Shown here: positions 3,058 to 17,100 of the stretch, piece by piece | How positions within the stretch are numbered: the stretch's first letter is position 1 | Layout: the number at the start of each line of letters is the position of its first letter | Source: Clostridia bacterium | GTDB lineage: Bacteria > Bacillota > Clostridia > Oscillospirales > CAG-272 | Assembly: GCA_017395885.1 (NCBI GenBank) | Contig: JAFQNM010000106.1 | Span: 1-20,160, forward strand | Length of the DNA: 20,160 nt | Direction: 5' to 3' | The notes under the pieces: model-generated | Seen by the model: only the letters and a program-made list of their open reading frames with translations | Told to the model about the DNA's origin: nothing | Database searches by the model: none | Translations under genes and position numbers: made by a program

Positions 3058-3271
3058 CTGTCGAGAAGGATGCAGATTTCGTCATTTCAAGGCCGTTGTC
3101 GTACAAAGGTACGACAGGACTTGAAAGGGCGAAAAGCGTGAGCTCCCCTGATTATTCAGGGGAGCTCTTTAATATGATTTTAATTATTTATTGATCTTGC
3201 TTTTTACAGTTAAAGCCACGATCCGGCTGTCTCTGTTTTGACACATCTGCGGTCTGCGCCTTTTTCGACAG
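3058..3271. repeat. Structured intergenic repeat, MITE-like, about 214 bp
   Basis: The ends are imperfect inverted repeats: CTGTCGAGAAGGATGCAG at 3058-3075 pairs with 3254-3271 at 14 of 18 positions. Inside, 3078-3136 folds into a long hairpin whose tip is GTCGTAC-AAAG-GTACGAC. A second hairpin (3140-3167) looks like a terminator. No open reading frame lies within it. It begins 7 bp after the pnuC stop codon. No target-site duplication was found. The layout suggests a non-autonomous mobile repeat or a conserved RNA structure; which one is unknown. Confidence 0.6.
3140..3167 (+). terminator. Intrinsic terminator downstream of pnuC
   Basis: Perfect 12-bp stem GAGCTCCCCTGA / TCAGGGGAGCTC with a TTAT loop, followed by a T/A-rich stretch (TTTAATATGATTTT). 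It sits inside the structured repeat, which may therefore supply the terminator for pnuC. Confidence 0.7.
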
Positions 3272-4330: not shown

Positions 4331-4645
4331 TCAGATAAGGGTAAAGATAAGCTGAGCTGCGTATGCGGCGGCGCAGGAGGAGAGAGCAACAACTATAAGA
4401 GAACGGTTGAAGTATGAGAGAATAAGGGCGCATACCGTTCCTGCTGCGGCTCCTGCAAGGCTGCCTGTTGAGTAGAATATCCAGGGAATGGTCATTCCAC
4501 CAAGCACAGCGTAAGGGATATAGTGGAAAAAGCTTTTGAGAAAGGGGCTATTTATCCGTTTTCTGAAAAGGGTGAAGGGCAGCATACGGATAAGATAGGT
4601 GGTAAGGGCCATAACGAAAATGTATATAAGCAGCTCAACGGTCAT
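4331..4645 (-). CDS. azlD: AzlD-family branched-chain amino acid export subunit
   Basis: This 104-aa hydrophobic protein has the AzlD pattern: an N-terminal helix, then 'TYLIRMLPFTLFRKRI' and 'SFFHYIPYAVLGGMTIPWIF', with about four membrane segments. AzlD is the small partner of AzlC in a two-protein exporter that discharges branched-chain amino acids, and in relatives other amino acids. Its start codon overlaps the end of azlC by 11 bp (ATGACCGTTGA), and its ribosome site AAAGGAGG lies inside azlC, so the two are translationally coupled. The length is normal for the family. The substrate is inferred from the family only. Confidence 0.88.
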   Translation of the reverse strand: MTVELLIYIFVMALTTYLIRMLPFTLFRKRINSPFLKSFFHYIPYAVLGGMTIPWIFYSTGSLAGAAAGTVCALILSYFNRSLIVVALSSCAAAYAAQLIFTLI

Positions 4646-5360
4646 CGTTCTGTTCCTCCTTTACGGGGAATATAACGGCGGCAAGGGCCGCAGCCAGAAC
4701 TGCGCATATGATTATGGCAAATCCCTGAGTTATAAATGAAAAGACGGGAATATACTTGAAGCAGCAGCTGACAGCGGCAGCCACCGCAACGGCAAAGAGA
4801 ATACCCCTGTTCTTTTTTGCGGGCGGAACGATGATTGCAACGAACATACCGTAAATTGCAATGCCGAGAGAAGAGGATATGCTCGCTGGAAGCAGAGAGC
4901 CTGCAATAGCTCCCGCAAGGGTTCCCGCCGCCCAGCCCATATAGGGCAGAAGGCCAAGGCCGTACATATACCGTGTGTTGACTCCCCCCGTCTTTGAGGA
5001 GGCAACGGCATATATCTCATCGGTGATGAAGAAGGAGATGGCCATACGGTGCAGGGTTGAGAACGTATCGTCAAGCCTTTGCGTAAGGGTCAGCCCCATA
5101 AGTGAGTAGCGGAGATTGATAATGAGCTGGGTCATTATCATTTCTATAATGGCGCCGGAGGCGGCAATAACGGAGAGGCCTGCCACCTGACCTGCAGAGG
5201 TCAGGTTGGTCATTGAAATGAGAAGTGCAGGCAGTGGGGGGAGGCCCTTTGCCACAGCGCTGATGCCGAAGCCGAAGGAAACGGAAAGGTAGCCCAGAGC
5301 AATGGGCAGTCCGTCACGCAGACCGTGGCGGAATTTAAGCCTTGATGCACGTATTTCCAT
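4635..5360 (-). CDS. azlC: AzlC-family branched-chain amino acid export permease
   Basis: This 241-aa membrane permease has the AzlC hallmarks: 'FRHGLRDGLPIALGYLSVSFGFG', 'SMTNLTSAGQ', 'INLRYSLMGL' and 'FFITDEIYAVA', with about eight hydrophobic segments. With AzlD it forms an export complex for branched-chain amino acids. The start ATG at 5360 follows AAAGGAGG at good spacing. A consensus promoter stands just upstream, with a 16-bp perfect palindrome running into its -10 box, so repression or attenuation is likely. No Lrp- or LysR-type regulator, the usual neighbour in other genomes, is seen here. Confidence 0.9.
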   Translation of the reverse strand: MEIRASRLKFRHGLRDGLPIALGYLSVSFGFGISAVAKGLPPLPALLISMTNLTSAGQVAGLSVIAASGAIIEMIMTQLIINLRYSLMGLTLTQRLDDTFSTLHRMAISFFITDEIYAVASSKTGGVNTRYMYGLGLLPYMGWAAGTLAGAIAGSLLPASISSSLGIAIYGMFVAIIVPPAKKNRGILFAVAVAAAVSCCFKYIPVFSFITQGFAIIICAVLAAALAAVIFPVKEEQNDDR

Positions 5361-5377
5361 CGAATGCCTCCTTTAAA

Positions 5378-5414
5378 ATAATAAACCTTGCCGAAAAGCG
5401 GCAAGGTTTATTAT
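5378..5414. promoter_or_regulatory. 16-bp perfect palindrome over the azlC transcription start
   Basis: The arms ATAATAAACCTTGCCG (5378-5393) and CGGCAAGGTTTATTAT (5399-5414) flank a 5-nt loop. The right arm covers all but one base of the azlC -10 hexamer, and the rest falls at or after the expected start site. On the minus strand it is followed by TTTTAAAGGAGG. It could be an operator, a leader attenuator, or the old terminator of nfo, whose 3' end once probably lay directly upstream. Confidence 0.65.
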
Positions 5415-5438
5415 ACTACCGTGATAAGCCTCCGTCAA
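5410..5438 (-). promoter_or_regulatory. Sigma-A promoter of azlCD
   Basis: TTGACG (5433-5438), 17 bp, TATAAT (5410-5415) on the minus strand. The -35 lies only 11 bp from the stop codon of the nfo 3'-end duplicate. Confidence 0.82.
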
Positions 5439-5448
5439 GAAGGCTTTC

Positions 5449-5495
5449 TCATTTTCTGAGCGACTTCAAAAGAGCGATCTCTCTTTCGTAGCCGT
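5449..5495 (-). repeat. 47-bp direct repeat, copy 1: detached 3' end of nfo
   Basis: All 47 bases are identical to 7118-7164. On the minus strand they read as the last 14 codons of nfo plus its TGA stop (GYEREIALLKSLRK). Identity ends exactly at the stop codon on one side and two bases into an Asp codon on the other. No start codon or ribosome site serves this fragment. It marks the left edge of the lipoprotein segment. Confidence 0.95.
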
Positions 5496-5512
5496 AAGGA
5501 GCATCATAGTTT

Positions 5513-6901
5513 TTAATCTATGTATCCCTTGTTGTTTCTGTAATTTTTATATTCTTCAGTTTCTCCGACAGCAATGAAATGCTTATCGTCACCACCGGCA
5601 CTTATGCGTATTATACCGTTTGACAGATCGACCCCTTTTTGACTGACATAGAAATCCTCAACGAGATTTCCGCTGTCATCATAAACGTGATACAACTTTG
5701 AATAAACGTCACCGTCGGAAATTAAAAAATGCGTTCCGTCCTGATCGTCGATACCGAAGTCGGGAGTTATCTCCATTTTAACAGGCTCAAATTTATAGCT
5801 TCCGTCTGCTTTTCTAAGGCCGAAATAGCAGGTTCCTTCGCTGTTCTCAATAACCTCGGCAAGCAGACCGTTGATATAATGCTCGGCAAAATAGTTTTCT
5901 GCTGTATCAATTGCCAGAGTATCGCGGCACCAGACGTTGTTCTGGAACATAAAATATTTTCCCTTCATAGTTTCGCTGCCGGATGAGAAAATATCTGCTT
6001 CTTTTTCACCCTCATACACCGGTGTTACAGTTCCATCCGGTGTAATTGAAAATAGCTTGTCTACGTAAGGATAATACTCAGCAAACACCATCCTTCCGTT
6101 TTCAAACCACATTGTCTCTACGGAAACATCGTAATTGGTTCTAGCTACTAATCCAACCTTGTTGGCTTTGCTGTCGTAAATTGCAACATTGGGATATTTT
6201 GCATCAAAAACGAACATTCCGTCTCCTGCGTATATGATCTCCTTGATAGAGTACGTGCTCCATGCACTTCCGCACTCTGTTGTAAGGATGGGGTTGGAGG
6301 CGGAAAGAGGCTGGATCCAATGTCCGTCCAACGCAACGACGCCTATTTCATACGTAACACCGTTGTAAGATTCTGTTACACGGTATGCCAGCAGATAGCC
6401 CTCTTCAAAGCTCACGATCTCTGTGTCTCGTCCGCAATTTTCTGTCTCAGGAAGAACGAATCCGGTTACTCCAAGAGATTCGGTAGAGAAAACAATATTG
6501 CCTTTTTCGTCTACAATATAGATTGTATCGCTTTCGGAATCCTCAAATAAGGTCTTTCCCGAATTCATTTTTGAAATGGGGTTACCGTTCTCAAAGCTTC
6601 CGATGATCCTTCCTTCGTAGGTAACGCATTTCCAACCATCGCTCTGCACCCAGCCGAAGCCTTCAGCGCTTTCGGCGAAAAATATGGCTTCGTTTATCTT
6701 CTCTTTGCTTACCTCGGCTACGGGAGCTTCATTCTCATCATCCTCATCCTCAAGGGTGTCGGATCCTTCTGCCGTACCGCTCTCGTCCATACCGGTGATT
6801 TCTGCTTCTGTATCGTTTGCGCTTTCGTCTTTATCGCTACCGCAGGAAACGAAAGCGATGCAAATAAGCATACAAATTAAAACAGTTACAATTTTTTTCA
6901 T
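5513..6901 (-). CDS. Putative lipoprotein of unknown function with beta-propeller-like repeats
   Basis: I do not recognise this 462-aa protein as a named family. The start is the ATG at 6901, preceded by AAAGGTGAG; a frame extending 17 codons upstream has no ribosome site. An N-terminal hydrophobic stretch (MKKIVTVLICMLICIAFVSC) ends in a lipobox-like AFVSC, so Cys20 would be lipid-modified; the Phe at -3 is less usual. An acidic linker rich in Asp, Glu and Ser follows (about residues 21-66). The rest is made of short strand-turn units such as 'IYIVDEKGNIVFST', 'VAIYDSKANKVGLV' and 'LFSITPDGTVTPVY', which resemble WG-repeat or propeller lipoproteins. It has its own promoter, is more AT-rich than its neighbours, and sits between the two 47-bp nfo repeats, suggesting acquisition. 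It probably acts on the outer cell surface; the ligand is unknown. Confidence 0.75.
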   Translation of the reverse strand: MKKIVTVLICMLICIAFVSCGSDKDESANDTEAEITGMDESGTAEGSDTLEDEDDENEAPVAEVSKEKINEAIFFAESAEGFGWVQSDGWKCVTYEGRIIGSFENGNPISKMNSGKTLFEDSESDTIYIVDEKGNIVFSTESLGVTGFVLPETENCGRDTEIVSFEEGYLLAYRVTESYNGVTYEIGVVALDGHWIQPLSASNPILTTECGSAWSTYSIKEIIYAGDGMFVFDAKYPNVAIYDSKANKVGLVARTNYDVSVETMWFENGRMVFAEYYPYVDKLFSITPDGTVTPVYEGEKEADIFSSGSETMKGKYFMFQNNVWCRDTLAIDTAENYFAEHYINGLLAEVIENSEGTCYFGLRKADGSYKFEPVKMEITPDFGIDDQDGTHFLISDGDVYSKLYHVYDDSGNLVEDFYVSQKGVDLSNGIIRISAGGDDKHFIAVGETEEYKNYRNNKGYID

Positions 6902-6939
6902 ATTTCTCACCTTTCTGCTATCAATTGGAGCAATTACCG

Positions 6940-6963
6940 TTAAGCTAAGCAAGCTATGCTTAA
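6940..6963. repeat. Small inverted repeat in the lipoprotein mRNA leader
   Basis: TTAAGC (6940-6945) and GCTTAA (6958-6963) are complementary arms around a 12-nt centre that itself contains AGCAAGCT. It lies between the promoter and the ribosome site. A regulatory role is possible but not shown. Confidence 0.35.
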
Positions 6964-6986
6964 AGCTTTTGGGTATTTATAACATC

Positions 6987-7015
6987 ATTATATATTATAA
7001 ACAGTGCTCAGTCAA
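6987..7015 (-). promoter_or_regulatory. Sigma-A promoter of the lipoprotein gene
   Basis: TTGACT (7010-7015), 17 bp, TATAAT (6987-6992) on the minus strand, inside the putative cassette and giving a leader of about 80 nt. Confidence 0.75.
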
Positions 7016-7117
7016 TACAGATGGCTTATATTATCATCATTGTTTTATGGGTCGATCTTTGCAAATATGAGGATGTTGGAAAAACAAAGGATATTCTTCT
7101 CTGCTAATGTAGTCAGA

Positions 7118-7164
7118 TCATTTTCTGAGCGACTTCAAAAGAGCGATCTCTCTTTCGTAGCCGT
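7118..7164 (-). repeat. 47-bp direct repeat, copy 2: genuine 3' end of nfo
   Basis: Identical over 47 bases to 5449-5495. Here it is fused in frame to the intact nfo gene and supplies its last 14 codons and stop. Confidence 0.95.
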
Positions 7165-7954
7165 CCAGCTCGTTGGGCGTTTCCAGATAAAAGGGCAGGT
7201 GGCTGATGAGAGGATGGTTTATGACCCTTGCTATTCCCTCAAGGCCGAGAAAGCCCTCGCCTATCTTCTCGTGCCTGTCCTTTGCGGCGCCGAGAGGATT
7301 TTTTGAGTCGTTCAGGTGGATGGCGCAGAGCCTGTCAAGGCCGATAACGGTATCAAAGGTCTCCAGCACCGCATCCGTATCCTGTATAATATCGTAGCCT
7401 CCGTCGGAGATATGGCAGGTGTCAAGGCAAACTCCCACGTGGCTTTTGCAGTCTTCGTCAACCGAATCTATAATTGCACGGATCTCCTCAAAGGTCTTGC
7501 CTATCTCGCTGCCCTTTCCGGCCATGGTCTCAATAAGCACCCTTGTTCCCTGACCGGGGGTGATGACCTCTGAGAGTAGTCTTGCCGTGTTTTCTATTCC
7601 CGCCTCGGCGCCGATACCAACGTGGCAGCCGGGGTGGAAGTTGTAAAGCGCACCGGGAATATCCTCCAGCACCTCCAGGTCCTCCCTCATGGAATCTCTG
7701 GAGTAGCTCCATATCCTGTCCTCTGCAGAGGCAGGATTGAAGGTGTACGGTGCGTGAGCCAGAGGGGGCGCAAAGCCGTTTTCTGAAATAAGCTTGTTGA
7801 GCGCCTCTATATCCTCCCTTGCAGGGCGGCGAAAGCCTCGGCCTCTGGGATTTCTTGTGAAATACTGAAAGGTGTTTGCGCCGATGGAAAGAGCGGTCCT
7901 TCCCATAGCGGCATACCCCTGAGAAACAGAAAGGTGACAGCCTATATAAAACAT
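7118..7954 (-). CDS. nfo: Endonuclease IV (apurinic/apyrimidinic endonuclease)
   Basis: This 278-aa cytoplasmic base-excision-repair enzyme cuts the DNA backbone 5' of abasic sites and removes blocked 3' ends, using three zinc ions. All nine expected metal ligands are visible: His67 (LAHAPY), His107 (NFHPG), Glu142 (IETMAG), Asp178 and His181 (CLDTCH), His213 (IHLND), Asp226 and His228 (DRHEKIG) and Glu258 (YLETP). The length is normal. The start is the ATG at 7954, six bases after a GGAG; a TTG four codons upstream is in frame but poorly placed. Its last 14 codons and stop are duplicated 1.67 kb downstream, and no terminator is found within 100 bp after it. It diverges from the YihY gene. 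Confidence 0.95.
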   Translation of the reverse strand: MFYIGCHLSVSQGYAAMGRTALSIGANTFQYFTRNPRGRGFRRPAREDIEALNKLISENGFAPPLAHAPYTFNPASAEDRIWSYSRDSMREDLEVLEDIPGALYNFHPGCHVGIGAEAGIENTARLLSEVITPGQGTRVLIETMAGKGSEIGKTFEEIRAIIDSVDEDCKSHVGVCLDTCHISDGGYDIIQDTDAVLETFDTVIGLDRLCAIHLNDSKNPLGAAKDRHEKIGEGFLGLEGIARVINHPLISHLPFYLETPNELDGYEREIALLKSLRK

Positions 7955-8093: not shown

Positions 8094-9011
8094 ATGAAAA
8101 GCGTTAAGGAGTTTGTAAGAAGAGCCTGGGGATATATTCTTCGCTTTTTTGGCATAATGGGCGAGGACCAGATAACGGTATATGCGGCGCAGTCTGCTTT
8201 TTTTCTCATAGTATCCTCCGTTCCCTTTGCCATTCTTCTCATAGGCATTGCCAGATACGTTATAGACGTTGATTGGCTCCTCGGTCTCATCTCAAGGCAC
8301 GTTGGCGGCGAGGCGGGAAGCATTCTTTCCTCTATCGTTGCCGAGGTGGTGGAAAAAACGGGCGCATCTCTCTTCTCCGTTTCCGTTATCACCGTTATAT
8401 GGAGTGCCTCCAGAGGTGTTTATTCCGTCACCAGAGGAATCTCCGTGGCATACGGCGTGCGTCTGAGGGAGAATTTTATCTTTGATATTCTCAGGTCGCT
8501 CATATATACTCTTGTATTTATAATGATGATAATCCTGTCTCTCGTGGCACTTGTCTTTGCAGAGACGATCTTTCGTGCGGCAAGGCCTTATCTGCCCCTG
8601 CCTGCCCTTGTTCCCATGCTTTTCAAAAAGCTGGCTCCCGTTATACTGACCGTGCTGCTGACGCTTTTTTTCGCCCTTATCTACAATACTGTCTCCAGAA
8701 AGGGCCGCAGCTTTTCACACAGCCAGTATAAGGGCCTTTCGGGAACCTTGCCGAGGGGCTTTGCGGCGCAGCTTCCCGGAGCGGTGTTTGCCTCTCTCGG
8801 ATGGGTGCTGTTCTCCTATTTCTTTGCCCTGTATCTCAGATACTTTCCCGGCGTATCGTATCTGTACGGCAGCCTTGCAACCTTGATGATCCTGATGCTC
8901 TGGGTCTACTCCTGTATGCTTATTCTGATGATAGGAGCAGAGATAAACAAGGTCGTGTTCCGCAAATGGGGCTCCCGAAAAAGGAGAAAAAAGCAGACCG
9001 GAGAGGGATAA
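8094..9011 (+). CDS. YihY/BrkB family membrane protein
   Basis: This 305-aa integral membrane protein is of the YihY/BrkB family (PF03631), once labelled ribonuclease BN; the true RNase BN is a different protein and the family's molecular role is unsettled. The family pattern is visible: 'MGEDQITVYAAQSAFFLIVSSVPFAILLIG' near the N terminus, 'WSASRGVYSVTRGISVAYGVRLRENF', 'RGFAAQLPGAVFASLGWVLFSYFFALYLR', and 'YGSLATLMILMLWVYSCMLILMIGAEINKV', with about six membrane helices and a basic tail. The start ATG at 8094 follows GGAGGAGAG; an upstream in-frame ATG at 8061 lacks a site and overlaps the promoter. It is transcribed alone. I see no clear terminator after it. Confidence 0.88.
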   Translation: MKSVKEFVRRAWGYILRFFGIMGEDQITVYAAQSAFFLIVSSVPFAILLIGIARYVIDVDWLLGLISRHVGGEAGSILSSIVAEVVEKTGASLFSVSVITVIWSASRGVYSVTRGISVAYGVRLRENFIFDILRSLIYTLVFIMMIILSLVALVFAETIFRAARPYLPLPALVPMLFKKLAPVILTVLLTLFFALIYNTVSRKGRSFSHSQYKGLSGTLPRGFAAQLPGAVFASLGWVLFSYFFALYLRYFPGVSYLYGSLATLMILMLWVYSCMLILMIGAEINKVVFRKWGSRKRRKKQTGEG

Positions 9012-16840: not shown

Positions 16841-17100
16841 AAATTCCGGTTTATGGGGGAGATATGTAGGAGGCCTTTTTGTAAAAAGGCCCCCTACGAC
16901 CCCCGAAAAACTTCAAAAAGGGGATAATAATTCGGCTTATCGGCAAGGGGCGTCCACTCCTTTGAACAAAGGCCCCGCGAGGGGCTTTTGCCGGTTTATA
17001 TAAAGGGAGTGTGCTCCCTTTATATAAACCTGTTTAAAGTTTTTTGCGGAGCTTTTTTTCAAAAAAGCGACCGTCTCCCCTCCCCGATAAACCGGAATTT
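16841..17100. repeat. Structured intergenic repeat with terminal inverted repeats, about 260 bp
   Basis: The region 16832-17163 has no gene. Its main content is a unit whose ends, AAATTCCGGTTTAT-GGGGGA (16841-16860) and the inverse at 17081-17100, match at 19 of 20 positions. Inside are four hairpins: 16866-16897 (15-bp arms, one mismatch), GCCCC-GCGA-GGGGC (16972-16988) within a larger fold, a perfect 17-bp hairpin (16993-17009 with 17014-17030), and GCTTTTTT / AAAAAAGC (17051-17068). Right-end copies recur at 11-51 and 20139-20160. It begins 10 bp after the spoIIE stop. No target duplication was seen. It may be a MITE-like element. Confidence 0.65.
16993..17030. repeat. Perfect 17-bp hairpin within the structured repeat
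   Basis: The arms GGTTTATATAAAGGGAG and CTCCCTTTATATAAACC enclose TGTG. It is the strongest secondary structure of the element and is not followed by a T run, so it is not a plain terminator. Confidence 0.75.

Follow-up and report, generated by a model that had tools for sequence, protein, structure and literature searches.

A lipoprotein gene between two copies of the nfo 3′ end in a Clostridia genome: anatomy of a probable single-crossover insertion

How did a lipoprotein gene come to lie between two identical copies of the 3′ end of nfo, the gene for deoxyribonuclease IV? We addressed this question in a stretch of 20,160 bp, hereafter the window, which is one whole contig (C303) of a fragmented metagenome-assembled genome (MAG G000; 1,675,895 bases in 303 contigs, ~72% complete), to which MAGs of Oscillospiraceae and Clostridia are the closest relatives with a name. 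The features of the locus are as follows.

4635-5360, minus strand: azlC (PF03591)
5378-5414, no strand assigned: palindromic hairpin in the leader of azlC (matches its own reverse strand at 86% over 37 bp)
5410-5438, minus strand: azlC promoter-like site, TTGACG-17-TATAAT (consensus match only)
5449-5495, minus strand: R2, orphan duplicate of the nfo tail (sequence identity and copy search of the MAG)
5461-5494, minus strand: 34-bp inverted repeat in R2 (arms of 14 bp that form 11 Watson-Crick pairs, 6 bp between them)
5513-6901, minus strand: lipoprotein gene, 462 aa, no assigned family
6902-7117, minus strand: intergenic region of 216 bp, nfo to lipoprotein gene
6987-7015, minus strand: promoter-like site of the lipoprotein gene, TTGACT-17-TATAAT (consensus match only, 11 of 12)
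7118-7164, minus strand: R1, last 47 bp of nfo including the TGA (sequence identity)
7130-7163, minus strand: R1 copy of the 34-bp inverted repeat, same as in R2
7118-7954, minus strand: nfo, intact (likely ATG at 7954, in an ORF that stays open to 7966)

The anatomy of the locus and the identity of the two copies are matters of direct observation. Positions 5449-5495 and 7118-7164 share 47 bp without a mismatch, and both copies end exactly at the nfo TGA. This identity, the starting point of the sequence-only reading of the locus, was borne out, as the longest exact repeats in 30 first-order Markov simulations of the window measured 13-16 bp, none exceeding 16 bp. On the gene strand, the base after the TGA is T at the nfo copy and G at the far copy, and a comparison of the flanks showed that identity likewise breaks off at once at the opposite edge; both edges of the repeat are sharp. 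R1 and R2 are separated by 1,622 bp, and the one main ORF in this interval spans 5513-6952 on the minus strand; its probable ATG at 6901, a start also used by the database protein P0001, gives the 462-residue product. The claim that nfo keeps an intact end also stood: the protein scores 262.3 bits against TIGR00587 (cut-off 129.65) and matches PF01261 as well, and most congener matches begin at residue 4-5 of the ORF. Direct repeats whose length falls within about 8-60 bp thus bound the insert, and the restored end of a gene is one of them; equally, a homologous segment is doubled at both ends and the target gene is whole on one side. No terminal inverted repeats were seen by eye in the 25 bases at each insert end, and the combination typical of DDE transposons, such repeats with a short target duplication, was not found, the duplication here being 47 bp.

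When up to three mismatches were allowed, the MAG (~72% complete) contained two copies of the repeat, both in the window, which rules out a dispersed repeat; the further copies for which a search had been proposed did not appear. Where the core of the repeat has matches in two congeners, G010 and G014, the matched stretch codes for part of an AraC-like protein, so named by eye, that has a similar peptide. The idea that R1 is a foreign tail in place of the native one is unsupported. The divergence of the last 47 bp is ordinary by comparison with the rest of nfo (54th percentile against G015, 40th against G008), so R1 bears no mark of foreignness. An alanine-to-glutamate change within the repeat (alanine in 82 of 100 nfo rows, glutamate in 4) is only suggestive of such an origin.

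We then characterized the cargo. Its product has a lipobox-like start, as judged by eye, and its GC content (43.4%) and GC3 (0.447) are the lowest of the 16 genes of the window, the other 15 ranging from 46.7 to 55.0% and from 0.514 to 0.617, respectively; the description of a single AT-rich lipoprotein gene between the copies therefore held. Promoter-like sites also lie where they had been proposed, ahead of the lipoprotein gene and, past the far copy, ahead of azlC, as consensus matches only, of which 4.0 kb contained 12 against 6.0 ± 2.5 expected. No Pfam or NCBIfam family exceeded its cut-off. A search of 5.8 billion proteins, in which the best 8,000 word-sharing candidates were scored, returned the protein's own cluster (four sequences, represented by P0001, two residues off the window protein) and two relatives at 36% and 31% identity. 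No full-length relative was found among 57 related genomes, many of them incomplete; partial matches at E ≤ 0.001 occurred in 16 of the 57, all within residues 4-134 and mostly in the signal peptide, and the MAG itself holds four further N-terminal matches of the same kind. The searches gave no match indicating viral, phage or plasmid origin, PHROGs hits being weak and mostly N-terminal, and no solved structure was related by sequence below E 0.44. The 216-bp intergenic region matched the 16 congeners over 17-30 bp only (best E 0.009). The cargo is rare, and we regard the gene as accessory in this lineage.

We hold that the insertion is real and recent. Our preferred reading, to which we assign a probability of about 0.58, is a recent and probably single insertion of the Campbell type, in which one crossover joined the nfo tail of the chromosome to a tail on incoming DNA. 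The incoming DNA would have carried the lipoprotein gene together with a copy of the nfo tail and would have been circular at the time of recombination; a single crossover between the two tails would then place the gene downstream of nfo, leaving nfo whole and putting another tail copy ahead of azlC. What we infer here is the circle, the crossover and an ancestral order nfo-tail-azlC. The sharp repeat edges, the restored gene, the AT-rich and rare cargo and the lack of terminal inverted repeats all speak for insertion; against a single crossover, neither an empty site nor a circle was seen, and nothing points to a source in which an nfo tail lies beside this gene.

The neighbourhood in relatives bears on the ancestral order. 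Among the 16 congeners, the closest being G015 with 86-87% protein identity, nfo was found in 12 and azlC in 9. Seven have both genes, on different contigs, which does not by itself rule out adjacency; in four the azlC identity is ≥59%, and G013 gives a weak match (24%). The available nfo flanks of the 12 contained no azlC, and neither an empty nfo-azlC site nor any congener with nfo adjoining azlC was found. A neighbour of nfo in 9 of the 12 is yihY. Downstream of nfo, the next gene varies between congeners; from their motifs we take these genes to encode a GH25-like lysozyme, a RecG-like helicase, PhoU-like and YpsA-like proteins, and others. Because of this variation and the missing azlC, the nfo-azlC neighbourhood appears to be a derived arrangement of this genome. 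When both insert flanks were aligned locally to G015, G008 and G011, two of the six alignments beat their own shuffles: the R2 flank with G015 (0 of 200 shuffles as good) and the R1 flank with G008 (4 of 200). A first-order Markov null weakened both (7 and 24 of 2000, respectively), and one lies in a convergent coding region and the other on promoter-like letters; we drew no earlier nfo downstream region from these alignments. Downstream of nfo in another congener (G003, contig C23, locus L061), we observed a multi-copy repeat at 8594, 11583 (inverted), 15022 and 15223, comprising one inverted arm and three direct copies, two of which match the reference over 107 nt at 61% and 77%.

Since gene order around nfo and azlC changes from congener to congener, rearrangements are common here, and the repeat pair might reflect a tandem duplication from the nfo tail through the lipoprotein gene, with the second lipoprotein copy then deleted up to the azlC promoter, or some other rearrangement scar. 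Such a history makes a recombinase unnecessary, but it needs two events, the second ending exactly after the TGA, and the 88 bp that separate R2 from azlC contain no lipoprotein remnant. We consider it unlikely. Across 17 genomes of the genus, this 88-bp stretch, which lies outside the repeat, matched nothing except its own hairpin. The azlC promoter-like site begins at 5438, 10 bp beyond R2, and the hairpin at 5378-5414 overlaps its -10 box and occurs in a single place among the readable contigs of the MAG. The azlC leader (5361-5512) folds with z = -7.05, and the window gave nothing in Rfam at the gathering threshold. The hairpin is possibly an attenuator, or the terminator of the upstream unit.

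A fragmented MAG (303 contigs in 1.68 Mb, ~72% complete) also invites the explanation that the contig path ran twice through the 47-bp stretch and joined sequences that are not neighbours. The lipoprotein gene is, however, represented in a database cluster of four sequences, whose source is not shown and whose representative is two residues off. Moreover, at the join the tail meets the 3′ flank of the lipoprotein gene, which does not belong to the nfo coding sequence, and the reads should thus have included another tail. Finally, a single exact overlap, 37 bp long, was counted among the ends of 69 readable contigs of the MAG; no overlap of 47 bp occurred there, and the 2016 others lie between 32 masked contigs. 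An assembly error is thus quite unlikely.

We return to insertion by a single crossover and to the agent that may have carried it out. Bases 2-35 of the repeat form the 34-bp inverted repeat, the duplicated block starting one base ahead of it; a 34-bp inverted repeat with a 6-bp spacer is what we take to be the shape of a tyrosine-recombinase core. By the 14-bp-arm measure, inverted repeats as good occurred in 8 of 651 ORF tails, nfo included (ORFs of at least 150 codons, six frames, readable part of the genome), and in 2 of 329 tails of ORFs of at least 250 codons. The inner 18 bp are a near-palindrome with 8 of 9 positions paired, a level reached by 2 of the 651 tails (nfo included) and by 8 of 2000 shuffles of the repeat; by a less elaborate criterion, 7 pairs in arms of 8 bp, such tails are far less rare (47 of 651). 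The nfo tails of the two closest species lack the 34-bp inverted repeat (6 of 14 pairs at most), and those of 13 relatives pair at no more than 6 of 9 positions of the palindrome. As these statistics were picked after the sequence had been seen, the inverted repeat counts as a lead to a putative recombinase site. An insertion at a break with 47-nt staggered ends, subsequently filled in, would equally yield a directly duplicated target and insert ends without terminal inverted repeats, in effect a very long duplication of the target site with no dedicated element involved. It would leave both the stop-codon end and the inverted-repeat start of the block to chance, and staggers as long as 47 nt are unusual; we regard it as highly improbable.

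With the position of the inverted repeat in its favor, a site-specific recombinase of the tyrosine type, either lost since then or working in trans, is a tentative candidate for the agent of the single-crossover insertion. PF00589 proteins are encoded in all 17 genomes of the genus set and PF00239 proteins in 13 of them, but the nfo contigs of the 12 congeners, several of them short, contained no match to either family, and no related integrase-coding element using the nfo site was found. The proposed search for a recombinase elsewhere in the genome gave a single PF00589 protein, which is Xer-like by NCBIfam but at 231 bits stays under the 335 bits required for XerC, and a serine recombinase encoded on a contig other than the window. 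Also, nfo ends are weakly conserved across species and therefore make a poor integrase target, and among the papers listed in the literature searches, titles and abstract openings offered no case of nfo as an integration site. Viral contigs contained no exact match to the repeat or its core and no relative of nfo or the lipoprotein. Thus, of the proposed integrating cassette, the insertion that leaves nfo whole, the duplicated tail, the accessory AT-rich cargo and a repeat length within range stand, whereas a recombinase on the congener nfo contigs is missing.

The sequence-only reading had further suggested that nfo tails, if other genomes had different cargo between them, might mark a site of cargo exchange. 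We reject this, as no second case emerged at nfo loci or in the readable part of the MAG. None of 100 nfo loci (93 distinct, 7 being repeat contigs from another collection, as matched by length) had a second nfo tail in an ungapped search, the best off-site matches reaching 22-29 of 47 positions; six rows (five distinct contigs) extend less than 1 kb downstream of nfo, where a distant second copy could be missed. Within the 480,578 readable bp of the MAG (69 of 101 contigs looked at, ~29% of the MAG), 13 direct pairs of at least 22 bp lay 200-12,000 bp apart on the same contig, and only the window pair touched the stop of an ORF of at least 100 codons; there was no second gene-tail cassette. 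A mixed set of partly overlapping loci (1.71 Mb) gave 19 repeat pairs of at least 26 bp, of which one more, from an azlC locus of G014, meets an ORF end on one side only; there the stop codon falls 31 bases within the repeat. It is very unlikely that the locus represents a minimal single-gene cassette whose 47-bp site (the 34-bp inverted repeat together with the final 12 bases of nfo) is recognized by a recombinase encoded elsewhere, which would bring surface lipoprotein genes to the nfo 3′ end in this lineage.

Tyrosine-recombinase elements, as described in the available part of PMC5704250, have repeats of 8-60 bp, and many use the 3′ ends of housekeeping genes. The CIME of that account (cis-mobilizable element, a decayed ICE or IME with its att sites kept) resembles the nfo locus in that direct repeats of this length, one of them a housekeeping 3′ end, enclose cargo lacking genes for integration or transfer. 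It differs in that relatives show no integrase-bearing element at nfo, the insert holds one gene only and the target is poorly conserved. Because related integrase elements were not found at the site, we do not file the locus as a CIME, although it could work that way.

Recombination by RecA or short homology is an almost equally tentative candidate for the agent of the crossover; 47 bp is short for RecA. In E. coli conjugation, single crossovers of circularized incoming DNA duplicated 109-950 bp of the target gene end in 14 sequenced clones (PMC3240628, as far as its available text goes). These lacZ-end duplications share with our locus a part of a gene doubled on both sides of inserted DNA and an insert without a recombinase; they are unlike it in that 47 bp is shorter than any of the published gene-end duplications. 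The available portion of PMC3784515 describes much larger tandem duplications in pneumococcus, arising when incoming DNA pairs with chromosomal repeats.

A parallel case beside azlC, in the congener G011 (contig C79, locus L079), argues for a crossover without a recombinase. A partial copy of the azlC 5′ end (119 nt, 88% identical; 1587-1705 against 4481-4599) sits 2.9 kb upstream of the intact azlC, and between the two lie genes for an LMWPc-family (ArsC-like) protein, a thioredoxin-like protein (Thioredoxin_3), an ArsP permease (ArsP_1) and an ArsR-family regulator. A scan of these four proteins found no recombinase. Such a topology would result from one crossover with a circle that bore the start of azlC. 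The two insertions are alike in combining a gene fragment, cargo without a recombinase among the scanned proteins and an intact gene, both beside azlC; the arsenic insertion differs in involving the 5′ end of the gene, a 119-nt copy that is only 88% identical, and four genes.

If an integrase made the nfo insertion, nfo would join the housekeeping genes used as attachment sites, and the locus would indicate the small size that units of this kind can have. If the crossover was recombinase-free, the locus would illustrate, together with the arsenic insertion of G011, how in nature accessory genes come in through one crossover and leave the end of a gene duplicated. With either agent, this is a modest case of gene acquisition and not a new system.

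Two families of dispersed repeats also came to light in the MAG. One is intergenic, occurs in the window at 12-58 and 16864-17100, and is present on 11 of the 69 readable contigs. The second, at 3083-3167 of the window and at 2859-2963 of another contig (C5, locus L196), copies that match one another, is present on 12-13 of the 69.
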